Source: Cornus controversa (lineage: Eukaryota > Streptophyta > Magnoliopsida > Cornales > Cornaceae). From it: DNA of 64,000 bases. Positions 21,484 through 60,162 of this stretch are shown piece by piece. The stretch's first letter is position 1, and every line of letters starts with the position of its first letter. The notes beneath the pieces were generated by a model that saw nothing but the letters and a program-made list of their open reading frames with translations, was not told the origin of the DNA and made no database searches. The stretch is taken from NCBI GenBank assembly GCA_026545225.1, contig CM048845.1, forward strand, positions 62,769,033 through 62,833,032, read 5' to 3'. The position numbers and the translations under genes are program-made.

Positions 21484-22609
21484 TATTTTTATCCTCGTAC
21501 ATAAGGCCAGATATGCACCCATAGACAAATTTCTACCATAGAATTTAATAAATTTGAGTTTCTAATAAATTTTGTTGAACTTTTAAAGATAATTTAATAC
21601 AAGTAATGACTCATGCCCAAATTTAAGTCACTCTTGACAATAAAAGCTTAATAATTTAGCCTTTTTATTAAATTAACAATATAAATAATAGTCATCACGT
21701 GAAACACATTGCTACATTATACCCCGTAAGATAGGATCTAAAAAATAGCAGATAGATCAAAAACATTATAAATTATACAAATAAAAGATTGAATGTTTAC
21801 CTATTTATTGAAAATTCAAATAAATTTGAATAATCGGGTGGATCCAAAGAAAGCTTGTAGATTTTGTGTAAATCTAGCACGAATGAATACGATTCATGCT
21901 ATATTTAGCAATTTAAGTGAAGAAACCAAAAAAAAGAGAGAAAAAATTGAAAACTCACTGATCGAAATTGTATTTGATTCAAGATCTTGTTGAAATTGGT
22001 GTTTGAAGTTCAAATCTAACTTGTTTATGAGGTTTAGAAAGAGAGAATGCTGGTAGAGAGAAAAAAGTTGACGAAATGGACTAAAAAAAAAGAGCCAAGT
22101 CTTCTTTAAATTTTCAGTTAGACTCGGCCGGCTTGGCCCGAGTCACCCCTAATTTTCTTTTGCGCTTCCTATTGATTTCATTTCGAGTCGTACCAAGTCA
22201 CCTTGGGGTGCCAAGTCGCAATACCGGCATGACTTAGGACTTGTTAGAGCACAATTAAAACTAGACCGAGTCTATGAGCCATGACTCAAATTATTCATGT
22301 ATAGCATAGTTTCATTTGTAGTTCATTATAAAGTAACCACAAAGATATTGAAACTCTTGAAATCGAATGGCTCATCCTTGTAATTTTTATCATTGATCTT
22401 ACCAGAGAAAAGCCACGGACGATGACAATGGTCTAGCCCAATGAACACTGTAGTTTGGCCCAAGCTCCAATCCATAAGTTTGTTCGGCCCATTTCATATT
22501 TGGGAGGTGCTTCTCCTTTCGAGGGTCTAATAAGAATATTGGAGTGTTTGCCACTGTTGGTTCAAGTCAATCATTTGTTATGCCCAAGCACCAATAAGAG
22601 GAATGTGAT
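21484..22609. other. Intergenic spacer left of the gypsy element
   Basis: No gene is recognised with confidence. Around 22435-22600 several 'ggcccaa' words occur, as in many plant intergenic and LTR sequences. The ORFs there run into the neighbouring LTR and are not credible. Confidence 0.45.
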
Positions 22610-22796
22610 TGTAGACATAAAAAAATTACATGATGGACCCAAAATACAATTTGGGTTTATTTTCAGTTTAGCCCACTTTGAAATGTGGCCCAATGAGTTA
22701 GATAATTTGAAGCCCAGACCCACCAGAAATAAATGAGTTATGGGTTGATCTAAATTATCTAAGAAGTCAAAGCCCACTTGAAAATGGGTCTAATGG

Positions 22797-22837
<41 letters not shown>

Positions 22838-23247
22838 AATTATCAAAATTATCATAAAGGATAATTATAGGATAATTATTAAAGGAAAAGAAAGTTACAA
22901 ATCTACCCCTCCGGTGAGCCTATAAATAAAGGTCTAGAGGTGGGAGAAGAGGACTAGAAGATTCTCAGAAAAAGTTGAAGCTCTGCAGAACTCTTTACTC
23001 AAAATCCAAAACTCCAAAGCATCTAAACCCTGAAGGAGAAGAACAACAAGCACATCATCCACGTGTCGTTCTTCACCAAAGTTTCAATCCAATTCAAGAT
23101 CAAGCTCTAGCAGCCCTTGAAGTCGGATCACCAAGGAGATCGAATCAGAGGACCTTATCTTCATATTTTCTTCTGTAAAGATTAAAAATTGTTTATTTGT
23201 CACTAATTTTCGTTCCTAGATTTTCGGACACGAAATTTGTGTATACA
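22610..23247 (+). repeat. 5' LTR of the Tat gypsy element
   Basis: This 638-bp LTR contains a TA microsatellite (22803-22832), a TATA box (tataaata) at 22921-22928 and a leader. Compared with the 3' LTR it lacks about 53 bp near the right end, around the polyadenylation-like 'aatcaataaa' repeats, and its TA tract is shorter. Confidence 0.93.
22921..22928 (+). promoter_or_regulatory. LTR TATA box
   Basis: TATAAATA in a 'gagcctataaataaagg' context is conserved in both LTRs (also at 33330-33337), as expected for the start of the retrotransposon transcript. Confidence 0.65.
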
Positions 23248-24798: not shown

Positions 24799-25046
24799 TG
24801 TAGTAACCCTTGTGGACGAGTGTGAGTGGGCGGGTGCATAGACAGACACTGGGCTGAGCTACCACACTGACAGGGTACAGGGTGCTCAATCCCACATCGC
24901 CTGGGTGTGGAAAAGGGGATGTGCTTATATGTAGTGTGTTCTCTTCAAATGGTATGAGGCCTTTTGGGGTAAACCCAAGAGCAAAACCGTGCGGGCTCAG
25001 GCCCAAAGCGGACAATATCATACCATGTGTTGGAGCGAGGTATTAC
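24799..25046 (+). mobile_element. TRIM solo LTR nested in gypsy gag
   Basis: About 248 bp start TGTAGTAACCCTTGTGGAC and end GGAGCGAGGTATTAC(A), matching the four LTR copies at 42.4-43.6 kb. The gag frame resumes directly after it: KED before, then (D)NKPRQFQEKQ after. The flanks AAGAT (24794-24798) and AAGAC (25047-25051) form a one-mismatch target duplication. No primer site or second LTR is attached, so it is a solo LTR, presumably left by LTR-LTR recombination. It inserted after the gypsy element did. Confidence 0.9.
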
Positions 25047-26434
25047 AAGACAATAAGCCACGACAGTTTCAAGAGAAGCAAAACCAACGTCCGACACTCA
25101 AAGAATTAGAGATGAAGGAATACCCATTCCCAGACTCTGATGTTCCTGACATATTGGAATGCTTACTTGAAAGTAAAGTTATTGAACTTCCAGAATGTTA
25201 GCGCCCTCAAGAAATGGGACGTGTTGATGACCCAAAATACTGCAAATATCATCGTATTATCGGTCATCCGACTGAAAAGTGTTTCATTTTCAAGGAAATA
25301 GTGATGAACTTGGCAAAGCAGGGAAAGATCTTGTTAGACACAGACGAGATAGCAACTTCAAATCATACTGTTGTCGTAGTCCCGTCTTCAAAGTTAGAAC
25401 AGACATGTGCTCATCACCAATTATTTTTAAACTCTGGTATCTGTTCCACAACTATTCAATTCGGCTCATTCGAACCAATTCAGATATACCTCCCCCAAGG
25501 TAGGATTCTTGACAATCCAACGAATGTGAAGAAACTTCTCCAACACGATGACGAAGGATGGACCTTAGTGACGAGGAGACGACGAAAGCAACATGTTCCT
25601 CTGACCAGCCACTTCGACAGGGGGCAAAAGAAAAAGAAGTCTCGATATACCCCTAAGAAATGTGTCCAGAATGGGAAAGGTGCCAATAAGACGGCATTGA
25701 CAAAACATACAAGGTTGGGTGAAGAAATTTGTAAGCCCGTTACTTTATGTGATTTCTTTCCAAAAGGATATCTCGATGATGAAGTTGTGCCAACTTACAT
25801 GGTGTCAACTGTGAGGATCGATTCGGAGATCGAAAGTGATAAAAGTCAAAGTGAAGTCCAAAGTATAGGATTGCTTGAGAAACACACGATCACCATCGAA
25901 GAATCCAATGACGAAGATGGAGTTGGAGCTACATCTGACTCATGTTGTGCAACAATCACTTTCACTGACGAAGACCTTCAACTGGGATCAAAGCCACACA
26001 ACCGTCCTCTTTTTGCCTCCGGATACATAAGGGAGCGAAAGGTAAATCGCATCCTTATTGATGGGGGCTCCGTAGTGAATCTCATGCCAAAATTTACAAT
26101 GAATAATCTTGGCATTACAGTTGACGATTTGGCTCGCAGTCGCCTCATCATTCAAGGTTTTAATCAAGGTGGGCAGAGAACTATTGGCATGATTCATGTA
26201 AACCTAACAATTGGAGGGTTGCAAGCTAAAACCTTATTCCACGTAATCGATGCAAAGACATCCTACAATTTGTTGTTAGGACGATCTTGGGTGCATGACA
26301 ATGGTGTTGTTCCATCAACTCTTTATCAGTGTTTCAAGTTCTGCAAGAATGGTGTACAGACAGTGATGGCAGATAACAAGCCATTTACTGAAGTAGAAGC
26401 CCATTTTGCAAATGCAAAGTTTTACATTGAGTAA
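25047..26434 (+). pseudogene. Gypsy gag C-terminus and aspartic protease
   Basis: The gag continues through KELEMKEYPFPDSD and VIELPEC to an in-frame TAG at 25199. It resumes as MGRVDDPKYCKYHR, GHPTEKCFIFKE, which is the CxxH...GH...C zinc-binding tail usual in Tat-like gags. A linker rich in Lys/Arg follows. Next comes a retropepsin-like domain with the active site ILIDGGSVVNLMP (DGGS codons near 26060) and the C-terminal YNLLLGRSWVH motif. The stop at 26432-26434 precedes further open frame. The upstream part is separated from capsid by the nested TRIM LTR. Confidence 0.85.
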
Positions 26435-32995: not shown

Positions 32996-33010
32996 AAAGT
33001 GGGGGCAATT
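32996..33010 (+). other. Gypsy polypurine tract
   Basis: AAAGTGGGGGCAATT directly precedes the 3' LTR start. This is the usual plus-strand priming site form in plant gypsy elements. Confidence 0.82.
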
Positions 33011-33197
33011 TGTAGACATTAAAAAATTACATGATGGACCCAAAATACAATTTGAGTTTATTTTCAGTTTAGCCCACTTTGAAATGTGGCCTAATGAGTT
33101 AGATAATTTGAAACCCAGACCCACCACAAATAAATGAGTTATGGGTTGATCTAAATTATCTAAGAAGTCAAAGCCCACTTGAAAATGGGTCTAATGG

Positions 33198-33246
<49 letters not shown>

Positions 33247-33710
33247 AATTATCAAAATTATCATAAAAAATAATTATAGGATAATTATTAAAGGAAAAGA
33301 AAGTTACAAATCTACCCCTCCGGTGAGCCTATAAATAAAGGTCTAGAGGTGGGAGAAGAGGACCAGAAGATTCTCAGAAAAAGTTGAAGCTTTGCAGAAC
33401 TCTTCACTCAAAATCCAAAACTCCAAAGCATCTAAACCCTGAAGGAGAAGAACAATAAGCACATCATCCACGTGCCGTTCTTCACCAAAGTTTCAATCCA
33501 ATTCAAGATCAAGCTCTAGCAGCTCTTGAAGCCGGATTATCAAGGAGATCGAATCAGAGGACCTTATCTTCATATTTTCTTTTGTAAAGATTTACAGAGG
33601 ATTGTACCCTTTTTCTTGAATCAATAAACCTTTTTCTTGAATCAATAAAAATTGTTTATTTGTCACTAATTTTCGTTCCTAGATTTTCGGACACGAAATT
33701 TGTGTATACA
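33011..33710 (+). repeat. 3' LTR of the Tat gypsy element
   Basis: This 700-bp LTR matches 22610-23247. It retains a ~53-bp segment absent from the 5' copy, with a duplicated 'cctttttcttgaatcaataaa' that may hold the polyadenylation region. Its TA tract (33206-33241) is longer. Confidence 0.93.
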
Positions 33711-41045: not shown

Positions 41046-42447
41046 CCAAATTTGAACAACTAGTTAATTTCAGGCAGTATTATTGAAAATTCACATTACT
41101 TTCTTTTCAAATGTTTAACAAATTTCATACTTTCCAGCACAAACATTGAATAATACATCCACTGAATTACTAAACTATACTAAAATTTAAGTGTGTTTAG
41201 TTTCACATTTTTATACATTTTTTTCTTTTCTCGATAAATAGCTTAGTGGTTCATTGTAGCGATTATAAGAGAAATATATATAAGAAGCTGTGAGCTCTAA
41301 GATAAAAACGGAACTTTAAAAAATTGAATAAGAGAGTGGAAGAAGATTTCAAGGCAAAAACTGAATCAACACAACTATAATAACAAATTTCAGAAAAAAA
41401 TAGATCTAAAATTCTAATTGTTAATAAATAATTGACCATTGAAATATGTAGGATAACATAATTAACTTTTATCAATTGTTTGAACAGTGCGTAGATATGT
41501 AATTGAGTTGAGAGAGAGGCCTGTGCACATTTCATGAGAGGCGATAGAGAAATGAAAGGGGCTACATGATGCCACTAAAATTTTGCTACTGCATCACTAT
41601 GAAAGGAAAACCAAAGTTACTTGAGACTAATGGATTTGTGCCTGAACACCTTGTTAGCTTTATATTTAATAAAGTATATATGTATATGTATGTAGATATA
41701 CTGTAAATATAATATTTGTTGCTTCAATTGAAGTTTTCATTTCAATAGTTCCAAACTCCTAATGCTTCAAATACTATACAAGATACAAACAACCATATAC
41801 ACTTGTATAATGTAACTTGTGTCAAACATCTATGTAACTTACTGACTATACAAGAAAATGAAGACAGAAAGAATAGAAGATCAAGAAAGCTCAAATTGAG
41901 GTACTAATATATGCAACATGGCTACTTGGGAATTCTTCCCTGAATTGCGAGTGCAATGTCAATAATTGCGAGTGCAATGTCAATGATTCCAATCAGCACA
42001 ATGCAATAGCATACAATGGACATTGTTAGTTCTTGATATTGTGTGAAATGCTAGAAAAGGTTTAGAGAATTCTCATTTCTGGAGCCAGAAAGGAATGGGG
42101 CTCATAAAGGTTTATAAGAGGTTAGTTTAGGTGCTTATTAGAGGTTGACAAAGATTCTTAAGATTTCAAGGATTCAGTATTTTGGGTTCCCCTGCCTTTT
42201 TCCAAGGATTGTCTCATTTACAAGCATATATGGGCGACTATGTTCATGGCATCGAAACAAAATAGCAAGTTAAGAATGTCGCCAACCAAATCTATATAAA
42301 TATTATAGTTACAGAACGAACAATGGAAATTGTGTTCCTCCCAAGGAGGCTGAATAACTCATGGGGCGACATGTTCCACCCAAGGAAGCTGAATAAATAT
42401 TATAATTATAGAAAGGATTGTCTCATTTACAAGTATGAGGAGACATG
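41046..42447. other. Intergenic spacer left of the double TRIM
   Basis: AT-rich, no gene seen. At 42330-42400 a short unit 'ttcc(t/a)cccaaggaggctgaataa' occurs twice and a third copy lies right of the TRIM insertion at 43613. 'aaggattgtctcatttacaag' also appears twice (about 42196 and 42413). Confidence 0.5.
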
Positions 42448-43021
42448 TGTAATACCCCGCTCCAACACATGGTATGATATTGTCCGCTTTGGGCCTGAGC
42501 CCGCACGGTTTTGCTCTTGGGTTTTACCCCAAAAGGCCTCATACCATTTGAAGAGAACATACTACATATAAGCACATCCCCTTTTCTACACCCAGGCGAT
42601 GTGGGATTGAGCACCTTGTACCCTGTCAGTGTGGTAGCTCAGCCTAGTGTCTGTCTATGCACCCGCCCACTCACACCCGTCCACAAGGGTTATTACAATC
42701 CACCCCCCTACGAGGCCCGACGCCCTCGTCGGCACACTTACTTCCGGTTGGGTTCAGGCTCTGATACCAACTGTAATACCCCGCTCCAACAGATGGTATG
42801 ATATTGTCCGCTTTGGGCCTGAGCCCGCACGATTTTGCTCTTGGGTTTTACCCCAAAAGGCCTCATACCATTTGAAGAGAACATACTACATATAAGCACA
42901 TCCCCTTTTCTACACCTAAGCGATGTGGGATTGAGCACCTTGTACCCTGTCAGTGTGGTAGCTCAGCCCAGTGTCTGTCTATGCACCCGCCCACTCACAC
43001 CCATCCACAAGGGTTACTACA
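42448..43021 (-). mobile_element. TRIM copy 1 (minus)
   Basis: LTRs are at 42448-42697 and 42772-43021, with a 74-bp internal region. On the minus strand the primer binding site TGGTATCAGAGC (42758-42769) lies two bases from the LTR at 42772-43021, and 'cctcgtaggggggtggat' precedes the other LTR. The right-hand LTR ends ACTACA, the left-hand one ATTACA. No coding capacity. Confidence 0.9.
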
Positions 43022-43039
43022 ATCCACCCCCTACGATAT

Positions 43040-43607
43040 TGTAGTAACCCTTGTGGACGGGTGTGAGTGGGCGGGTGCATAGACAAACACTGGGCTGAGC
43101 TACCACACTGACAGGGTACAAGGTGCTCAATCCCACATCGGTTGGGTGTGAAAAAGGGGATGTGCTTATATGTAGTATGTTCTCTTCAAATGGTATGAGG
43201 CCTTTTGGGGTAAACCCAATAGCAAAACCGTGCGGGCTCAGGCCCAAAGCGGACAATATCATACCCTGTGTTGGAGTGGGGTATTATAGTTGGTATCAGA
43301 GCCTGAACCCAGCCAGAAGTGTGCCGACGAGGACGTCGGGCCTCGTAGGGGGGTGGATTGTAGTAACCCTTGGGGACGGGTGTGAGTGGCCGGGTGCATA
43401 GACAGACACTGGGCTGAGCTACCACACTGACAGGGTACAAGGTGCTCAATCCCACATCGCCTGGGTGTGAAAAAGGGGATGTGCTTATATGTAGTATGTT
43501 CTCTTCAAATGGTATGAGGCCTTTTGGGGTAAACCCAATAGCAAAATCGTGCGGGCTCAGGCCTAAAACGGACAATATCATACCATGTGTTGGAGCGGGG
43601 TATTACA
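43040..43607 (+). mobile_element. TRIM copy 2 (plus)
   Basis: LTRs are at 43040-43288 and 43359-43607, with a 70-bp internal region. The primer binding site TGGTATCAGAGC is at 43291-43302 and the polypurine tract ends just before 43359. The first LTR ends TATTATA instead of TATTACA. Compare the solo LTR of the same family at 24799-25046. Confidence 0.9.
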
Positions 43608-43798
43608 ACATGTTCCTCCCAAGGAGGACGAATAGTGCTAAGAAGCTAAAACAATATCACACCTACGAATAGGCAAAGTGTACAACATTGCAAGAAATCA
43701 AAGAGCTTGTTTTCAAGAAAATATTTGCAAAATATAGAAGTGTTCTTTCATTTGATGGAACAAAGATATTATCTTGACATCACAAACAAGAAGTAAAG

Positions 43799-44155
43799 CT
43801 ACCCAGAATCAAGTTGATTCACATCAACAACCTTTATAGCATCAAAATTCTCCTTCGTGGTCGCATATTCCCCTTGTAGACGTGTAGACAACTCCTCAAC
43901 CTCAGCTATATCCTTCTGAATCCTCTCCATTCTAACAGGAAGTTGTTCCTTCGCCAACTTCATCTCGGCCAAATGCAACTGGTCATTAAGCCACGCGATC
44001 TCAATATTTGCTTCATTCAAGTCATCCATAGTAGATTTAATAAACTGAATTTCAGATGCTGAAACAGCTCCATGACGGAATTGACGTAGAATGAGAAGTA
44101 TTTTACCCAGAGACTCAAAAACAAATTTCTTGCAGAAAAGAAACTTCTTCTCCAA
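43799..44155 (-). CDS. Coiled-coil ORF, unidentified
   Basis: A 118-codon minus frame starts MEKKFLFCKKF and is mostly heptad-like: MDDLNEANIEIAWLNDQL, AEMKLAKEQLPVRMERIQ, VEELSTRLQGEYATTKENF. It ends with NQLDSG and stop. The composition is that of a coiled coil, and it may be an exon of a larger plant protein rather than a complete gene. A 24-bp segment 'tagaatgagaagtattttaccc' is duplicated at 44087 and 44167, suggesting rearrangement at its 5' end. I do not recognise a family. Confidence 0.35.
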   Translation of the reverse strand: MEKKFLFCKKFVFESLGKILLILRQFRHGAVSASEIQFIKSTMDDLNEANIEIAWLNDQLHLAEMKLAKEQLPVRMERIQKDIAEVEELSTRLQGEYATTKENFDAIKVVDVNQLDSG

Positions 44156-44545: not shown

Positions 44546-44671
44546 CAGTTCTAATGAAACAAACGAAGAAAAAACATGAAAAGATTAATCTTATTCTTGC
44601 AGTTTAAATTTACTGCAATATCACTAAAACTAATGGGTTCAATAGAATAAACACTAATTAAACTACAATAA

Positions 44672-44768
44672 GGCTGTGTTCGGCTACACGGAATTGGAGC
44701 CTTGGAATTAACAAAATTTTCTCTCATTCCAATTCCAAGGCTCCGATTCCGTGCAGCCAAACACACCC
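44672..44768. mobile_element. Small foldback MITE, Tourist type
   Basis: A 97-bp near-palindrome starts GGCTGTGTTCGGCTACACGG and ends with its complement (CCGTGCAGCCAAACACACCC), with inner arms 'ggaattggagccttggaatt' paired with 'aattccaaggctccgattcc'. TAA flanks both sides (44669-44671 and 44769-44771), as for PIF/Harbinger Tourist MITEs. The transcript would form a strong hairpin. Confidence 0.88.
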
Positions 44769-45066
44769 TAAGTATTCATATAATTCTAGGATCCTAGCTA
44801 CTGGGTTCAATGCTAATTGCCATCTGTTAGACAAACTGACAAAATATATTCAGAGCTCCTCTCTAGTGTAGAAAGGTCACATAGTTGATCACATAAACAA
44901 TTGAAAGTTACCAATCCAATAAAAATTGAAGTATAATACAAGGGGAATTATAGTGAATATGAACAATAGCACCTACTTTACAAACAATGTAACTAAATCA
45001 AACACTCCACAAACAATTTAACAAACGAAACACAAACCAGATAAAAAAAGAGAGAACTAAAAATTA

Positions 45067-45893: not shown

Positions 45894-48282
45894 TTATGTA
45901 GTGATACTGAGATGTCGAAGAGATGTCGAGGGGGGGAAATGAAAATTTCCTTGAGGAAAGGACGTCTCAAGACATGGACAGTGACTTATAGATATTGTAT
46001 GAAGGCTTTGAAGAATCTGAGCATCAAAAAATGGAAACCACCTCAGATTTGAGCAATTGCTGATTCGAAGCCATCTGAGGCTGGGGGTGGAGAAGCAGAA
46101 GCAGCCTCCTCTTTCCGGGATGGACAACAAGGACTCCAGACTTTCACAATCTTCTATCGAAAGGCTTTGAAGAAGAATCTGGTTGGTCATAGCGGCCAAG
46201 GTTCGGAGATTCACGCAACTCATGATATCAAGTGATCTGAGATTGGGTAAGTAGCCTCCTCTTTCTGGGAAGGACAAGGACTCCACAACATCGCAATTAA
46301 ATATCCCTAGGTAACGGAGACCAGCGAAATTATTATTATTATTTTTTACGCACCCCCAACCCCAAGTGGTAATAACATCCCAATCTTTGACCAATTGCTG
46401 ATGCTTAACAGCTCAAGTGATGACATATTAATATTGTTAAACTCCTCCTCCTCCTCCTTTGAGAAGTACTCCAAATTCATGCAATTCCAAATACGAAGCC
46501 TCTCAAGGGCGGTGTGTAGGTGGGCCAGGACCTCAAAGATGAACATCCTTCAATATTTAAATGTTTAAGACTAGAGATGCCCTCTGGCAAGGACTTGAGC
46601 GCATCGCAATCCTCTATCCGAAGCTTTCTAAGCCTGGGTGGAACACCTCTCCTCCAAAACTTCTCAAGCTTCACACAGTTTTTTATTTTCAATTTCTGAA
46701 GATTAATGCAATCCACTTCTTCATCATCTAATTCATTTTCTCCAAAGGAAACAAGTTGGGGGCACCCTGAAACACTCAGTCTCCCTAGACAGATAAGATT
46801 CTTTTTCTTTACCACTTCCCCACCATTCTGCCACAAAGTCACTAGTTGGTTGCATTTCTTAATGACAAGACTTTCAAGTGCTCCCAGAGACGACTGCACC
46901 AATACTTCATCCAGTTGAGATAGTCCTATAATATTCTCAACTCTCAAGCTGGTTAGTGAGGTCAAATCAACCATATTTTTTAGCACCACATCTTGACACT
47001 CTTTCAAGTCTAATTTTTGAAGAGAAGGAAGCCTCAAAAGTGAAAACCTAACAAACTTTGGACAACCACTTATTATGAGCTCACGGAGGCAAGAAAATTG
47101 TCCTCCAGCATCTCCAACACCAATACAACAAGACCATTCTTTCCATGCCGGCATGTCTCGAATGCATAGCTCTTTGAGCATGATAAGCTGCCCAAGTGGT
47201 GGTAAAGATGTGCAATTTTTACACCCTTCTAGAGTCAGGTTCACCATTTTAGAGAACAATGGATCACCTATCTAACTTGAAAATTGCGTGCCCCCGTAGA
47301 ACTTAATTGTAAGCTTTTTCAACTCTCCGTGAGGTTGTAGCTTGTCCAACACATCCAATTCAAGGTTTTCTTTTCGAAAATCATTGAATTCACTACACCA
47401 TGCCAACTCTAATTCTTCAATGTCCTGCTTGGCCTTTAAATTTGCCTCATTTGTATCTCAAACATCTGTTACATTTTGCAACTCGGTAATAGAAATACTT
47501 CCTCGTAAAAGGCTTAGATTCCTCAACTCTTTTACTCTTAGCCCATTATTTTCGTCCACAATGAATTTTGACAATGTTTGCAAATTCGTCAGTCTACCGA
47601 TTCCCGAAGACATCTCTCGTAATTCATTAGTATCGGTAATGTCAAGATGGCGCAAGTTAATTAAATTCCTAATGTTAGGAGACAACATACAAAGTTTTTT
47701 GCAACTGCGCAATAAAAGTGTTTGTAAATTTTAGAGAGTACTTACTGATTCTGGCAACTGGCTGATTGAAGTGCCAGATAAATTAAGATACCGCAAATGT
47801 TTCAAACCACCAGTTGAGTCTGGCAGCTTAGTTATTGCATAATCAGACAATGACAACACCCTTAAACATTGTAACTTTGGAAATAAATCAACCAAAACCT
47901 TGTTTGCCAAATACCCTTGTCTATTCCAGCCGGACAATATTGGTAGAAAAGTTCTCAAATGTTGCACTTTATAAAGAAGCCTAAACTTTTGAATGACTTC
48001 AAATTCTTGACAAATATATGAAAAGTGTTGAACTCGTTTAGGAATTTCAAATTGCTTATCACCTTCCAACTTATCCAGCCTAAAGCATATATCCCCAACG
48101 ACATGTAGAGCTAGATCATTTAAAAGATCATGCATCACAAATCGTGATTTACTACCACTTGATTGTTGGAAAAATGACCTTGATAATAGATCCCTAAAAC
48201 ATTCATCGCCAAAATCTTCCATCCGCTTCTTTTCTTTTGATAGCTGCAAAAGACCTACCCCCATCCATAACAAAACTAGCTC
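45894..48282 (-). pseudogene. NBS-LRR (CNL, RPP13-like) resistance pseudogene, 5' truncated
   Basis: The minus frame opens with ELVLLWMGVGLLQ, GDECFRDLLSRSFFQQSSG and RFVMHDLLNDLALHV, the region just after the NB-ARC in CNL proteins, then runs through leucine-rich repeats (LRVLSLSDYAITKLPDS, HLRYLNLSGTSISQLPES). The coiled coil and nucleotide-binding domain are missing: at 48283 the homology stops and Sirevirus gag begins. Stops at 47731 (TAA), 47458 (TGA in TDV*DTNEAN) and about 47274 (TAG in FSS*IGDPLF) stay in one frame. Frameshifts near 46510 and 46370 then disrupt the distal repeats. LRR continues to 45894 (SLRHLSITT stop). Confidence 0.92.
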
Positions 48283-50129
48283 ATTTTAGCATGAACCCTA
48301 TTCTTAGCAAAAGAATTATGCATATGAAAATCAGAATTAGAATGTCTCCTCCTTTTACAGCAATAGTGTTGACTATATCCATTCTTACCATAAAATGTAC
48401 AATAAAGCACATTGGACACAACATTAGCATGCAAGGACTTAACATGAGGCTTAGGTTTGGGTTCTGACACATTCAAGTTCTTGGGCTTAACAAAAACAAT
48501 TTTTCCCTTAGATGATGACCCAACAAAACCTAATCCAGTTTTATCTCCTACAGGCTTACCAACACTAATCATGTTATCAAGCTTAATCTGTCCAGACGTA
48601 AAAGCATTTAATTTCTCTTGTGATTTTCTCAATTCAAGTTCAAGAGAATAAATTCTAGCAATAAGAGAATCTAGCAGAAATAGCTTGACTTACCTCGCTT
48701 TCGAGAAACTTGACTTTGTCTTGAAAATTTAGAATTTCTGTTTTACTTTCTTCAGTCAACTTCACTTGATCTTCATTCTTTTTCTTCAAAGTCTATTTCT
48801 CAAATTTTTCTTGCTTCAGCTTCTCAGATTTTTTATTATAAGCTTCTAGCAATTTCTCAAAAAGTTCTGGCAGCTTATTTTCACATGGTTCTATGTCAGA
48901 CTGATCAACTTCTGAATCATTAGACCCTACTTGACTGAGAGTAGTGTACACTTCTGTTTCACTTACATCAGAAACAGAATCATTAGCAGTATCATCATTC
49001 AATAAAGCAACAAAAGCAAAAGAATCATTCTCAACAGATGAATCACTATCAGAGTTAGAAGATTCAGACTCAGAAATAATAGCTTTCATGACTTTCTTGT
49101 TTGAACTTTTCTTTGCACTAAAACTATTTTCTTAGGACTTAGACATTGATTAGATGTATGACCTTTACCACCACATGTCCAACAAGTAAGTTCAGTCTCC
49201 CTAGAATCATCTTCTTTCTCTTTTTTTTCCTTATCTTTGGATGATGAGCTTTGATTCCAGAATTTAGAAGGATTTCCTTTTCTCGAATTTCTAACCTTTT
49301 CATATTCAAGAATCTTTCTAAATTTTCTAGTAAGGAGTGCAACATCATTATCTGAATCATATTCAAAACTTTCAATTTTTTCAACTTTAGATTTTGAAGA
49401 ATTTGAAACATTTGACAAACTTGAAGACTTGGAAGTCTTTGAGGTTTCTAAAGCCAAATTTTTTGATTTCTGAAGTTTTGGATATTTCATCTCAAAATTT
49501 TGAATTGATCCAACTAACTCAGCTACCTCCATTGAATCTACATCTCTGCTCTCATCTAAGGCTTCCAACTTAGCTTGGAACCTATCAAGTAATGATTTCA
49601 TGATTTTTCTAATAATCTGAAAAAATAAAATTTTCTCACCAAGGTTAGCACTACTTTGAACAATATCATTAAGTCTAGAATAAAAATCAGAAAACATCTC
49701 ATCTTCATCCATTCTAATTATTTTAAATTTAGTGGCAAACATTTGTAACTTTGATGTCCTTACCTTTGTGGTACCCTCATGAGTTACTAGTAAAATATCC
49801 CATGCTTCTTTCAAAGTGGAACAAGGAGAAATTCTAGCAAATTCAGAAGGAACAACATAATTAAATATTGTATATAAACCCTTGTTGTTATTATTAGCAT
49901 CTTCATGCTCAACATTAGACCATGTTATTTTATCCTTCTCTACAGTCACAGCATCACCATCACTAGTGGTAGTGGTAGGAATTTTATAACCATTCTCTAC
50001 AGCCATCTAAACTCTATCTTCTTGAGATTTCAAAAAGGCTTTCATGCGAGACTTCTAGAAAGTATAATTTGAACCATCAAACAAAGGAGTTCGCTAAATC
50101 GATCCACCCTCTTTCATACTAAATTCCAT
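48283..50129 (-). pseudogene. Sirevirus element 2 gag
   Basis: The likely start is the minus ATG at 50129: MEFSMKEGGSI then stop, RTPLFDGSNYTF stop, KSRMKAFLKSQEDRV stop, then a long frame from 50006 (MAVENGYKIPTTTT). The capsid region includes ISPCSTLKEAWDILLVTHEG. A zinc knuckle CWTCGGKGHTSNQC lies near 49160, and a second CX2C-like YGKNGYSQHYC near 48360. Coiled-coil Ser/Glu-rich sequence lies between. Premature stops and frame changes mark it as dead. It is cut at 48283, where the resistance pseudogene begins; pol is absent. Confidence 0.85.
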
Positions 50130-53005: not shown

Positions 53006-56000
53006 TCAAGTATGGATTACCTCATTCTCTTTTGCCATTCCAATTTCTCTCCTAATTTTACAGAAATGATCTTCTTGAAGAGGTTTCGTAAGAATATCGG
53101 CCAACTGGTTTTCAGTATTTATAAAAATGAGCTCAATATCACCCTTAGACACATGATCTCTCAAAAAGTGGTGTCTAATCTCAATGTGTTTGGTCTTAGA
53201 GTGCTGAATGGAATTTTTGGAAATACATATCGCACTTGTATTGTCACACCTGATAGGTATGTGATCAAGTATAAGTCCAAAGTCCTCAAGTTGTTGTTTA
53301 ATGTAGAGCGTTTGTGCACAACAACTACCGGCGGCCACATATTCGGCTTCCGCCGTTGATAATGCCACGGAATTTTGTTTCTTACTAGACCATGATATAA
53401 GAGAGTGTCCTAGGAAGTGACAAGTACCACTAGTGCTTTTTCTATCGATTGTGCATCCGACAAAATCAGCATCCGAATAACTTATGAGGTTAAAGGATGT
53501 AAACCTAGGAAACCAAAGTCCCAAATCAATTGTGCCACTCAAATATTTGAAGATTCATTTTACGGCACTTAGATGAGATTCTTTAGGACATGATTGAAAT
53601 CTTGCACATAAGCAAACACTAAACATGATGTCCGGTCTACTTGCCATCAAGTAAAGAAGACTTCCAATCATTCCTCTATACTTCTTGATATCAACATCTT
53701 TTCTCTTTTCATCCTTATCAAGTTTAGAGGTGTTACTCATAGGTGTTTTTGCATATTTGGCATCCTCCAAGCCAAATTTCTTTAGCAAATCCTTAACATA
53801 TTTGGATTGGCAAATAAATATACCATCCAATGATTGTTTGATTTGCAATCCTAAGAAGAAGTTAAGTTCACCCATCATGCTCACCTCAAACTCATTTTGC
53901 ATTTTAGAGGCAAACTCTTTGCATAACTTCTCATTTGTTGATCCAAAAATTATATCATCAACATAAATTTGAATAATCAACAAATTTTCATCAATGGTTT
54001 TTGTATAAAGTGTATTGTCAATTTTTCCTCTAACAAAACCATTTTTTAGTAGAAAACCACTAAGTCTTTCATACCAAGGTCTAGGAGTTTGCTTCAATCC
54101 ATACAAGGCTTTTGATAATTTGAAAACATGGCTCAGAAGATCATGACTTTCAAATCCCGGAGGTTGTTCTACATAGACCTCTTCTTCTATGAAGCCATTC
54201 AAGAATGCACTTTTCACATCCATTTGAAATAACTTAAAGTTCTTATGTGAGGCATAGGCAAGGAGCATTCTAATTGCTTCTAATCTAGCTACCAGTGCAA
54301 AGGTTTCCTCATAATCAATTCCTTCTTCTTGGTTAAAACCTTGGGCAACAAGTCTAGCTTTATTTCTCACAATAATGTCCGATTCATCTTTCTTATTTCT
54401 GTACACCCACTTAGTGCCTATGATGGTTTGGTCCTTAGGTCTAGGAACTAACTTCCAAACTTGATTTCTTTCAAATTGACTAAGTTCTTCTTGCATAGCT
54501 ATGATCCAAGACTCATCATTTTTGGCCTCAAGAAAATTCTTTGGCTCTATTTGAGACACAAAAGCCAAATGATTACACACATCTCTAAGTTGAGATCTTG
54601 TACCTACACCCATGGATGGATCACCTATAACTTGATCAAGAGGATGATTATGGATAATTCTCCAACTTCTAGGGAAGGCATCATTAGGATCACTTTGGGT
54701 GATCTCATCATTGACTTCCTTACTTAGAGGACTTTGTGAAGGCTCACATGTTTTGTCACTAATCTCTAGTTCATCAACACTTTTCTCAACATCAACAATT
54801 TCATCATCCACATTAATCTTAGGAGCACATGGAAGAGATTCATCAAATACTACATGAATAGATTCCTCAACTACTAGAGTCCTTTTGTTGAAAACCCTAA
54901 ATGCCTTACTTCTTGTCAAATATCCTAGGAAAACACCCTCATCGGATTTAGCATCAAATTTTTCTAGGTTATCCTTGCCATTTAGCACAAAGCATTTACA
55001 CCCAAACACTTTAAAATACCTAATATTGGGTTTCTTACCATTCCATAGCTCATAGGGTGTCTTATCAAACTTCTTTCAAATAATAACTCTATTTATGACA
55101 TAGGAAGAAGTACTTACGGCTTTAGCCCAAAAATATCTAGGTAAATTGTGCTCATTGAGCATGGTCCTAGCCATTTCTTGAAGAGATCTATTCTTTCTTT
55201 CAACAACACCATTTTGTTGAGGAGTCCTAGGTGCCGAAAGATTGTGATCAAATCCATTTTCATCACAAAATCTTTCTAAGTCTTGGTTTTCAAATTCTCT
55301 ACCTCTATCACTTCTAATGGTCTTAATTTTGTAGTCCTTTTCGTTTTGAACTTTTCTACAAAATTTGGCAAAGATTGCATGTGTCTCATTCTTGTGAGTA
55401 AGAAAGAAAACCTAACAAAGTCTAGTAAAATCATCAACAATCACAAATGCATAAAGCTTTCCACCTAGACTAGCAACTCTTTCCGGACCAAATAAATTCA
55501 TGTGGAGTAGTTCTAAAGGTCTAGAGGTTGTGATGTCCTTTTTACTTTTAAAGGAGGATTTGACTTGCTTCCCTAATTGGCAAGCACTACAAGTCTTGTC
55601 TTTTATGAACTTAGCCTTTGGAAGGCCTTTGACTAAGTTTTTCTTGGACAATTTTGAAATCAAATCCATGCTAGCATGACCTAATCTTCTATGCCACAAC
55701 CAACTATTATCACTAGAGGAAATAAAGCAAGTAACATTTTGATCAAACAATTCACAAAGAAGGATAATGTACAAGTTACCATGTCTACGAGCAATGAAAA
55801 TTTGTAAACCATCTTTTTCAACAATGCAACTTCCCGATTTAAAGATAACATCAAAACCTTTATCACACAATTGACTAATGCTAAACAAGTTATGCTTTAA
55901 TCCTTCTACAAGAAAAACATCATCAATAGAGGAAGAGGAAGAGGAAGATATACCTATAGTGCCAGCGCCCACAATTTTACCTTTTGAATTGTCTCCAAAA

Positions 56001-56100
56001 GAGACATTGCCTCCATCATAGGGTTTGAGGGAGATGAATTTAGAACGATCTCCTGTCATATGCTTTGAACATCCGCTATCAAGAAATCACTTGTCTTTGG
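53006..56100 (-). pseudogene. Sirevirus pol (protease, integrase, RT, RNase H)
   Basis: One minus-strand frame carries all pol domains, interrupted only by stops. The protease site is LDSGCSKHMTGD (about 56090-56055). gag_pre-integrase reads WLWHRRLGHASMDLI. The integrase core shows IRSDRGREFENQD and TPQQNGVVERKNRS. The RT has [22 protein letters not shown] and the catalytic [10 protein letters not shown]. The RNase H has YSDADFVG, RKSTSGTCH and STAEAEYVA, and it ends ADILTKPL. Stops are at about 56092, 55411, 55076 and 53555. At least three fit G:C to A:T transitions (Trp or Arg codons to stop). Pol is in a different frame from gag, as is common in Sireviruses. Confidence 0.93.
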
Positions 56101-56138
56101 AGATTGAAGAGGATTTCAAGCAAACCTACAAGACAAAC

Positions 56139-57887
56139 TTAGATGATTTCTTTTGGTACCCAAATCATTTTAGGTCCTATTGGGTTAGCAATCATAGGAA
56201 ATGTTTCTTTTGGAACCCAAATCATCTTAGTCAATTTTCTTCTTCTCAATGGACAAGCAAAGATCTTATCTCCCATTTTCCTACAAAGATTGCATACAAA
56301 GCTATTAAAGCTAAATTCAGATCTTTTGACAAAGAAGTGATTCAATGGTTTGAACTTGTCATTCTTGGAATAAGGCCTTTTGATCAAGGATTTTTGTTTG
56401 TCTTAAGAATTGTAGCCAATTCCTTCTTTGTCATAAACATCTCTTTGTCTACCAAGAAGAATAGTTAAATTCTTTCTTCCTTTGATAAATTTTGCAAGAA
56501 CATCCACTTGATCCTCAATAATTTTCTTCAAGTTATCAATTTCGGATTAAGAATCATTTGAAGAAAATATGTTTGAAGAAAAATTTTCTCTTTCACTTTT
56601 TAACAAAACATTTTCACTTTGGATTTTTGAAATAGATGAAGACAAGCATTCATTTTCTTTTCTCAAAGAATCATTTTCATTTTGAGCATTATAATTTTTT
56701 TGAGAAAAAGATAAGTTTTTTTCTTTAAGAGTGGAGTTCTTCAAAATTACTTTTTCTAGCTCACTATGCAAATCCTCAAAAGCACATTGCAATTCATCAT
56801 ATGAAATCAATGGAGAAGTTTCAAGGTTAGAATTTACCTCATCATCAATTGCCATAAGGCAAAGATTTGCAACCTCATTGCTTGTGTCGCATTCCGAATC
56901 GCTTGAGTCGGAATCATCCCATGTGGCTTTCATAGCAACTTTCTTACTTTTATCTTTTCTTGGCTTGCGACAATCTTTTAGAAAGTGTCTCAATTTGCCA
57001 CAATTGTAGCAAGTAGGAGGTTCTTTTTTACTTGAATCTCCTTTTGGCTCATCTCTCTTGAAGGTTCTTCTCTTGGGGAAAGGTTCCCTTCTTAAAAACT
57101 TCTTGAATTTGTGAGCAATGAATGCCATGTCATCCTCATCATCACTAGACCCACTTTTATCAATTTCTTTCGAATCTTGGAGAGATGATTTCAATGCTAA
57201 GGTCTTCTTTGGATTAGCTATTTCTTGATGACTACCAACTTGAATCTCATGAGTCATAAGCGATCCCATAAGGTCTTCAAGACTCAAGGTGTCAAGATCC
57301 TTAGCTTCTTGAATAGTCATTGCCTTTGCATCCCAACTTATAGGAAGACACCATAGCACCTTTCTAACATTGTCGGAGTTAGAATAAGTTCTACCAAGAT
57401 GAGACAAGCTATTAACAATATTAGTAAATCTAGTAAACATTTCATTAATAGATTCACTTGGAAGCATGCTAAAAAGCTCATATTCACGAATCAACATACT
57501 AATTTTGGTTGCTCTAACTTGCTTAGTGCCCTCATAGGTCACTTCTAATTTGTTCCAAATTTCTTTGGCCGTTTTACAAGCCGAAATTCTATTGAATTCG
57601 GATTTTCTTAAGGCACAAAACAAATTAGTAATAGCTTTAGCATTAATTTGGATTAGCTTTCTATCACCATCGGTCCATTCTTCTTCATTCTTGGGAAGTT
57701 TTCCATTTTCAACATTTTTCATAGGAACTAAAGGCCCTTGACAAACAACTTCCCAAACTTGATAATCAATGGATTGGAGAAAGAATATCATTCTAGGTTT
57801 CCAATAATTATAGTCGGTGCCATCAAACGAAGGTGGCCTATTGTTTGATTGTCCTTCCATATGAGATGCACGTTGCATGTTTTCCAT
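56139..57887 (-). pseudogene. Sirevirus element 1 gag
   Basis: The minus ATG at 57887 opens a 446-codon frame (MENMQRASHMEGQ). It shows RPPSFDGTDYNYWKPRM (copia gag N-terminus), ACKTAKEIWNKLEVTYEG and FTNIVNSLSHLG in the UBN2-type capsid, and a zinc knuckle CYNCGKLRHFLKDC (one glycine replaced by Arg). A coiled-coil region follows. A TAA at 56547 is premature: the same frame continues with EIDNLKKIIEDQV, a VKRSEFSFNSF segment and paired MIWVPKE repeats to the natural stop at 56139. A second stop is near 56405. Confidence 0.92.
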
Positions 57888-60162
57888 GATTGTGTTTGAA
57901 TCTCTCTATCCCTAACCTTTTATATTGTGTTTGTTTAATTCCTTCATTATCTCATTATTCATTGCATATCTTTTTTAATTCTGGGATTTGATTTTATTGT
58001 TTGTCAAAGACCCTATTCACCCCCCCTCTAGGGTCATTTCTTGAGTAACAAGCTCGAAGTTGTCGACGATCGATACAAAGAATAATATGAAAATTACAAC
58101 TCGATCAATCAGGTTTGATCACCGAAATATGCCAATTACAAATATATATGTCACACATCTACCTTACATAGCCTCGTTTTATATATATATATAACAGTTA
58201 TAGTTTGGTAGGTAGTAGTTGTAAGAGTTAATGAGAACCATTTAAGGAAAACAATCCATTGAAACAGAAGAGAAGACCAATAGTCCAAACATTAGAAATC
58301 AAGTTTCAATACGTTCATACGTTAACTTCAAACCTACGTAATATCTCAAATTTATACAACAGATGGATCGTCTTCCATAAGAGCTTGTCGGTGAGTTGGC
58401 AAAACTTTTAGCTTCCTTATCTTTCAGAGACCTCTACCGATTTCACTTAAGGTTATTAATATTATACCATTCCTTTGTTTCGTTATTTTATATGCATGAT
58501 ATATACCCTTCCTTTCTCTGTGATCACTCGTGCTCCTAATAGCGTTCGTCGACTTTCATTCGAGTCGGTACACAATTTAAGTAACACATCCCCCACTTGG
58601 TTTCCCTTAGAAGCACAACTCAAGCGTGACTAGTTTAAATCGTGCCTTGGAGCACATAACTTAAAGGCTATGTTTATCATAGGGGTGGTACGCATAAGTT
58701 TCTTAATATGCTCATGTTTTGTGCATATATAGGATGTTTTTTTTCTCTATAATGATAGAAAACCATATCTGTTATCATCGTAGGAATTGTATTTCTGCCA
58801 AGGGTTACTCAATCTAGCTCTGCAACAACTGTATGCTACGTTGCCACACCATCCCCCTTCTTTATTTGCTACTGCAGTTTGTTTTATATTCAAAAATGCA
58901 GAGGAGAAGGAGATAGGAATATGACTGTTGGGATGCATAAGGAGAGAGATACTACTCTGCCCAGTTATAAAGACAAGCATCTCTCGCATGTTGGTGATTT
59001 TGAGTCATCGTTGGATAAATAACCAACGATTTCTTATCCATGTTCCCAACTGTTGTCCCCAAGGAAGCCATTTCACAATTTCTTAGGGTTGTGTCGATTT
59101 AGAATCAGTACATTGTGATGGTTGTGCTTGTGATTTAATAGTGACTGTATTGCAACGCTGGAACACAACCTTTACATTGATTTAGTATTTAGTTGTAAGT
59201 ACATACACATTTTTGGTATATTGCTTTTGATATGTATTCTGTCCACTTTTAGTCTTATGAATGATTGGGATGTTTAATTTTATAATATGGGATGCAGTTT
59301 TAATATTACACTACTTTCTCACACTTTGAACACTGACAAATATTAACTGTGAAAGGAATATTCTGATCAAGATCGTAGGAATATTGTGAAAGCAGACATT
59401 TCAAAAATAATTATTCTTAAATTTCTCCAAACCTGCGTAAATCAGTACAATACAAGAAATGGTTTAGATGCTATGAAGTACCACACGATGATACCACAAA
59501 TTGCCAAAAAATATAATATATAGATTTGTTTAGAATATAATAGTCAAAATATTTATTATTTTTGTTAATTCAATCCACGTTATTAATTTAATTACTAATT
59601 TAGATATTACAGTTATATGTATATTGTTGGAAATATTCTGAGTTTGCTTTATATTGGTTAACTAATGATTGAAAATAGTATTTATAAATAAATGAAAATT
59701 ATAGTTTACTTGTGAATTAAGAAGTGGTCATTTTGAATTTTTGTTGAAATATTAGTGATTTCCCGTTATAATTCATTATTTCATTGGGATAATATTTTAA
59801 CAAATGACCACAATCAGTGACACCTACAGATAACTACAGATATACACAAGGCATGCGAGGACAATAAAGATCAGATATACAAGGCATACGAGGACAGTAA
59901 AGACTGACATTTTTGAAGTCATTAATTGAAACCTATTATTCATATATATAAATGTTATTCAATACATTTGTACAAGTGTGGTTGTATTTCATTTATGGTG
60001 AAAGTAGTTGTAGGACCTTTAATGCTATATATTAAAGATAGAAACAGATATATATTTGGTTACAATCCAATAGTCCCACCATTACAAATCAATTGTCAAT
60101 CCCTCAGATTGTCTTCCCTTTGCCTTTTTCCTTCAACCAAACTCCCTCTTCAGGTTAGCTGA
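57888..60162. other. Intergenic spacer
   Basis: No gene is recognised. At 58010-58035 'ccctattcaccccccctctaggg' is the inverse of the Sirevirus 'cctagaggggggtgaatagg' motif and is nearly palindromic, but no LTR could be built around it. The 80-codon minus frame at 58747-58989 has no recognised domain. Confidence 0.45.

Follow-up and report, generated by a model that had tools for sequence, protein, structure and literature searches.

The window analyzed here, a 64,000-nucleotide stretch of the Cornus controversa genome (assembly GCA_026545225.1, contig CM048845.1), contains at 42448-43607 a composite of two complete terminal-repeat retrotransposons in miniature (TRIMs), which stand in opposite orientation and point away from each other. 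Each unit has two long terminal repeats (LTRs) around a short internal domain that holds a primer binding site (PBS) and a polypurine tract (PPT). The inner ends of both units are U3 (5') LTR ends, separated by the 18-bp spacer ATCCACCCCCTACGATAT, and the outer ends of the composite are U5 (3') LTR ends with ACATG on both sides. An initial annotation of the window had described the same coordinates and layout (LTR-internal domain-LTR on the minus strand, 18 bp, LTR-internal domain-LTR on the plus strand), which direct reading and self-comparison found to be correct. The features of the composite are as follows.

42443-42447, no strand: left copy of the target site duplication, ACATG, 5 bp
42448-42697, minus strand: L3 (left-unit 3' LTR), 250 bp, reading TGTAATAACC...GTATTACA in the sense of the element
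42698-42771, minus strand: left-unit internal domain, 74 bp, with PPT AGGGGGGTGG at 42700-42709 and PBS TGGTATCAGAGC at 42758-42769, both placed by eye
42772-43021, minus strand: L5 (left-unit 5' LTR), 250 bp, U3 end towards the junction
43022-43039: spacer ATCCACCCCCTACGATAT, 18 bp
43022-43036, minus strand: 15-nt extension of the left U3 end within the spacer, equal to the final 16 internal-domain bases (PPT side) less one G of a G-run
43037-43039, plus strand: T (43037) and AT (43038-43039), the AT being identical to the two bases just before the LTR in each internal domain, a weak match (1 in 16 by chance)
43040-43288, plus strand: R5 (right-unit 5' LTR), 249 bp
43289-43358, plus strand: right-unit internal domain, 70 bp, 4 bp less than the left one, with PBS TGGTATCAGAGC at 43291-43302 and PPT AGGGGGGTGG at 43347-43356, both placed by eye
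43359-43607, plus strand: R3 (right-unit 3' LTR), 249 bp
43608-43612, no strand: right copy of the target site duplication, ACATG, 5 bp

The units are 574 bp (left) and 568 bp (right) long and share 94.6% identity over 574 aligned columns, with 25 mismatches and 6 gap positions. At less than 600 bp, neither has space for gag-pol, and the composite holds a single stop-to-stop open reading frame (ORF) of 138 amino acids at a minimum length of 110 amino acids. In both units, the PBS lies two bases past the LTR and the PPT two bases ahead of the LTR; the PBS is presumably of the initiator-Met transfer RNA (tRNA) type. The final four bases of R5 are TATA in place of the TACA of the other LTRs, one substitution through which R5 ends in TA. 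Our preferred reading, to which we assign a probability of roughly 60%, is that the composite is one insertion of a head-to-head dimer, in which two TRIM complementary DNAs (cDNAs) were joined at their U3 ends and integrated via their U5 ends.

The flanks of the composite indicate a single insertion event. Taken alone, the halves have unlike flanks (ACATG / ATCCA for the left unit and GATAT / ACATG for the right unit), and a search of the locus for a separate duplication flanking either half found none. This agrees with the initial annotation, in which the pair was inserted as one unit with a single ACATG duplication: the outer flanks match, the inner flanks ATCCA and GATAT do not, and neither half has a duplication of its own. 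The chance of a 5-bp match between the outer flanks is ∼0.001 at the local base composition. Removal of the composite and one ACATG rebuilds the uninterrupted site ATGAGGAGACATGTTCCTCCCAAGGA, and a local repeat copy resembles this joined site in 23 of 26 bases (42361-42386, plus strand, E 0.002; the search ran up to 42387, from which point the sequence is the flank used in the query itself). Since this copy has a single ACATG, at 42369-42373 and 74 bp upstream of the left duplication, a single ACATG was likely the starting state at the target site. Taken together, a single integration of the composite is well supported. Short scrambled repeats of 24-28 bp surround the insertion site (42204-42436 and 43611-43635).

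The composition of the spacer differs from what had been proposed. The left LTR runs straight into 15 PPT-side bases, which are followed by three bases and then by the right LTR. The internal domains finish CTCGTAGGGGGGTGGAT, and the left U3 end is preceded by TCGTAGGGGGTGGAT, which is 15 bases long and has one G fewer. Three PPT-side copies are present in the composite, all of them LTR-adjacent, and the junction copy alone is cut off. The initial annotation had taken the spacer for the first ∼15 bases of an internal domain and the left unit to be starting a second internal domain when the switch occurred. In element orientation, these bases are instead the last ones; the spacer is PPT-side sequence abutting a U3 end, and the proposed start of a second internal domain is not supported. 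The PPT side is where second-strand synthesis gets primed, and the spacer fits a cDNA end that retained the PPT primer. Unprocessed cDNA ends may in addition carry two extra bases, as in retroviruses, given that the PBS starts two bases inside the LTR boundary.

The LTRs also carry information on the number of templates. Both LTRs of a new insertion derive from one RNA, and a single cDNA folded back on itself would therefore give four LTRs that are identical at birth. Among the four LTRs, 20 columns are variable; 14 of these are private, and four (columns 111, 112, 173, and 182) split L5 and L3 from R5 and R3. Four more columns vary only in a lone LTR of the same TRIM family (24799-25047, plus strand), which is the only further family copy in the window and served as an outside comparison. 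The internal domains of the two units are a 4-bp indel and three substitutions apart. In a simulation in which all four LTRs were identical at birth and received 26 random changes (20,000 runs), at least four unit-specific columns never arose under uniform rates, and arose in a fraction of 0.00035 of the runs when C/G sites were five-fold hotter. The four LTR sites that are common to both LTRs of each unit and distinct between the units, together with the 4-bp internal indel, point to two different template RNAs rather than one self-copied cDNA. The divergence of the LTR pairs, 7 versus 11 substitutions (P=0.48), is compatible with one insertion date, which would be ∼1.1-3.3 million years ago under two published substitution rates.

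Several observations speak against the joining of two distinct cDNAs followed by a single integration. An additional slip or mutation is required to account for the missing G in the spacer run and the lone T at 43037. Columns 103 and 190 conflict with the unit grouping, supporting one each of the two other groupings. All four unit-specific columns lie within one 84-column stretch that has no within-unit difference (P ∼0.02 for a gap of this length, and P 0.013 for all four columns falling in a tract of such size), and LTR-to-LTR gene conversion inside each unit could explain part of the signal; because the columns cluster, their value as proof of two templates is tempered. ACATG is not a rare word, with 112 occurrences on the plus strand of the window and one nearby at 42369. 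Finally, the sequence does not tell non-homologous end joining (NHEJ) from a reverse-transcriptase jump between ends.

If two cDNAs were joined as we propose, the course of events could have been the following. Two slightly different TRIM RNAs would have been reverse-transcribed by the machinery of a partner element. In one cDNA, the PPT primer may not have been cleanly removed, or plus-strand synthesis may have started upstream of the PPT, and the resulting U3 end with ∼15 extra bases would not be expected to be accepted by integrase. Host end joining, of the sort that produces 2-LTR circles, would probably have linked this extended end with the U3 end of another cDNA that was otherwise normal. 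To insert the resulting linear dimer, integrase would then have used the two outer U5 ends, as the anatomy of the composite suggests, leaving one 5-bp duplication. In human immunodeficiency virus 1 (HIV-1), end-to-end cDNA junctions with PPT or primer-site sequence have been attributed to defective RNase H, and one such junction contains a dinucleotide of unspecified origin (PMC5618025); the joining of cDNA ends is attributed to NHEJ (PMC5618025, PMC3148978). For same-orientation TRIM arrays, the insertion of multi-module structures formed during retrotransposition has been proposed (PMC11899658). The suggestion in the initial annotation that the two TRIMs came to stand head to head at the cDNA stage is supported, which would place the event before or during cDNA maturation. 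We further propose, tentatively and at somewhat less than even odds, that the locus is the fossil of a rescue route, in which a cDNA with a PPT-spoiled U3 end was saved by fusion to a different cDNA and integrase took a substrate that offered two U5 ends but lacked a free U3 end.

A related scenario keeps the same dimer and the single integration and has reverse transcriptase jump between cDNA ends in the particle, with the addition of 1-3 untemplated bases. Two RNAs per particle are a general feature of retroelements, and such a jump agrees equally well with the differing templates and with the small number of additional bases where the ends meet. The sequence offers nothing to distinguish it, and we consider it rather unlikely on the ground that the end joining of linear cDNA is a documented retroviral route to LTR-LTR junctions.

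Less probable is a strand switch on a single template, a course proposed in the initial annotation, in which a palindrome formed first and gene conversion between the LTRs of each unit later made the unit-specific variants. This course is in line with the clustering of these variants in the 84-column stretch (P ∼0.02), as well as with differences between units (11-13 columns) that are barely above those within units (7 and 11). However, a conversion tract would be required at the same place in both units, the internal domains differ too (by the indel and three substitutions noted above), and four unit-specific columns appeared in 0 of 20,000 uniform-rate simulations. Fold-back alone also leaves the position of the break at the PPT unexplained. 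Copying of one template back on itself is disfavored by the fact that each unit has its own variants in both of its LTRs.

Two independent, adjacent insertions, with the inner duplications later lost by deletion or rearrangement, appear improbable to a still greater degree. The outer flanks are identical and the inner ones are not, and a deletion would have to end exactly at the U3 ends and leave matching outer 5-mers (∼0.001). Had the right unit inserted into a left tandem array, it should be flanked by a duplication, but GATAT and ACATG differ; nesting of the right unit in the left one was rejected on the same unmatched flanks. An assembly or library artefact is very unlikely: sequencing libraries are known to produce palindromes as inverted chimeras, but these arms are ∼5% different with unit-specific indels, unlike a chimera of one molecule, and neither the matching 5-bp flanks nor a plausible uninterrupted site would be expected. 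We give equally little weight to a rearranged same-orientation tandem array, for example one inverted in half via an ectopic inverted partner: same-orientation tandem TRIM arrays are common and have been explained by recombination (PMC4528315) or, alternatively, as inserted structures made by retrotransposition (PMC11899658), but the arrays described there share internal LTRs, whereas here there are four full LTRs and a PPT-cut spacer.

The predicted fold of the composite has an energy of -1135 kcal/mol versus -165 and -210 kcal/mol for the halves, and the composite, if transcribed through, could fold into one long hairpin. Rfam matches to microRNA genes at the junction (MIR5062, mir-3149, and mir-253) were rejected for scores below the curated cut-offs (60.3 bits versus a cut-off of 140 for MIR5062), and the MIR5062 and mir-3149 alignments look like the LTR palindrome fitted to a hairpin, not like common sequence. 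It has been proposed that transposon silencing can start from inverted LTR pairs, and this locus is a natural inverted LTR pair whose junction bases suggest how such pairs form. For the Arabidopsis element EVD, head-to-head or tail-to-tail LTR insertions were proposed as a source of LTR hairpins; EVD read pairs with opposite-orientation LTRs were searched for in that work and none were found, with a caveat on detection (PMC11624286). Should other loci prove to have two-template junctions tagged by the PPT as well, long-read plant genomes would allow the origin of inverted arrays to be counted directly. If the rescue route is general, plants would regularly form head-to-head dimers in small amounts, and each would be an inverted-LTR locus able to yield hairpin RNA against its own family.

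The LTRs of this TRIM family contain a second feature of interest, an exact plant small nuclear RNA (snRNA) upstream sequence element, ATCCCACATCG, which is present in all five LTRs of the family within the window. The stretches from ATCCCACATCG through the TATA box are located as follows.

24889-24929, plus strand: ATCCCACATCG and TATA in the lone LTR
42567-42607, minus strand: ATCCCACATCG and TATA in L3
42891-42931, minus strand: ATCCCACATCG and TATA in L5
43130-43170, plus strand: ATCCCACATCG and TATA in R5
43449-43489, plus strand: ATCCCACATCG and TATA in R3

TATA begins 26 nt past the end of ATCCCACATCG in every one of the five, and in R5 a TTTT begins 36 nt after the start of TATA. The pairing of ATCCCACATCG with TATA occurred a mean of 0.00 times in 100 shuffles and has no further match in the window. 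This box spacing is, we assume, like that of Arabidopsis U6. The consensus of the snRNA upstream element is given in PMC9845283, according to which the two boxes of U6 and U3 genes are one helical turn closer than those of snRNA genes transcribed by RNA polymerase II (Pol II). The presence of ATCCCACATCG, its spacing to TATA, and the TTTT in R5 suggest that the TRIM is driven by a U6-type (type 3) RNA polymerase III (Pol III) promoter. PMC10886601 names tRNA- and 5S-type TRIMs, and the terms "snRNA," "type 3," and "U6 RNA" are absent from its main text; no TRIM with an snRNA promoter was found among the titles of the matches listed in a broader literature search. The snRNA-type promoter may exceed the head-to-head arrangement in novelty.

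Sequences that typify other TRIM families were also looked for. No 5S ribosomal RNA-like LTR sequence of the Cassandra type was among the seven Rfam matches at E<=5 in 42000-44000, and no tRNA-like LTR sequence of the Helenus type was found by ARAGORN in the window or among the same seven matches, although a very degenerate tRNA-like stretch could escape. A 23-base LTR pattern had 0 matches in viral contigs and 0 in bacterial and archaeal genome contigs, as expected for plant DNA, and four LTR sequence words did not occur in a literature search.

Several other mobile elements and gene fragments are present in the window, where the domain scan covered 10 of the 41 listed ORFs and found disease-resistance-type and copia/gypsy domains. 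The lone TRIM LTR at 24799-25047 lies directly after the gag domain of a Ty3/gypsy element and interrupts its ORF; its 5-bp flanks, AAGAT and AGACA, differ, so it is not the simple solo LTR of one insertion. Direct repeats at 22609-23247 and 33010-33710 (95.7% identity across 583 aligned bp, and a further 65-bp piece that matches exactly) enclose gypsy gag, reverse transcriptase, and integrase ORFs and are probably the LTRs of a gypsy element. An imperfect palindrome of 99 bp (44671-44769; 75% identical to its reverse complement across 106 columns) sits ∼1 kb to the right of the composite. Beyond it, at 45894-48285 on the minus strand, are disease-resistance gene fragments with resistance-protein winged-helix and leucine-rich repeat domains. 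They are presumably of the nucleotide-binding leucine-rich repeat (NB-LRR) type, NB-ARC having no match among the ORFs scanned, and they are apparently truncated beside a copia-type gag ORF at 49086-50006. In a copia-type element at 53555-57905 on the minus strand, separate ORFs contain the reverse transcriptase (53555-55075) and gag (56547-57905).

Arrays of TRIMs have been described before. Gao et al. (2016) reported that 35 out of 43 plant genomes contain tandem TRIM arrays, with arrays confirmed by polymerase chain reaction and sequencing (PMC4717578). The legend of their Figure 2C lists a maize Zma-SMART array "with two inverted TRIMs" (AC220956:117725-118283) and the target site duplication CTTCA. 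The initial annotation had called a palindromic array with one duplication unusual, which is fair as a matter of frequency, but the class is already in print (PMC4717578); the head-to-head pair is an uncommon but precedented accident and not a new kind of element. In one phrase-based literature search for inverted or head-to-head LTR elements, PMC4717578 alone among the six matches had TRIMs as the subject of its title, and other inverted pairs may be in print. Literature searches gave no match for inverted multimers of Ty1 ("inverted dimer" being absent from the Ty1 matches listed) and none for the combination of PPT, 2-LTR, and end joining in plants. A head-to-head pair in PMC12312487 was rejected as a precedent because VANDAL21 is a DNA transposon.

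The closest known system is the Zma-SMART array, which likewise has two inverted TRIMs and one target site duplication (PMC4717578). It measures 559 bp, one element being 280 bp, which leaves practically no room for a spacer, whereas the spacer here is 18 bp. It also belongs to a different, smaller family, its legend is silent on head-to-head versus tail-to-tail, and the passages on it in PMC4717578 that we consulted do not discuss a junction mechanism. The same-orientation arrays of Cassandra, Wukong, TA-TRIMs, and tandem LTR retrotransposons resemble the composite in having multiple LTR/internal modules of similar size; in maize Wukong, for example, the LTR is 230 bp and the internal domain 72 bp, and the LTRs are "usually" in one orientation (PMC4528315). 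Unlike the composite, with four full LTRs in two directions, these arrays have modules that share LTRs and usually run in one direction. The junctions of HIV-1 2-LTR circles also resemble the composite, as they too are end-to-end cDNA with leftover PPT or a few extra bases (PMC5618025). There, the two ends of one molecule join, whereas at this locus the U3 ends of two molecules would have been joined and the linear product integrated.
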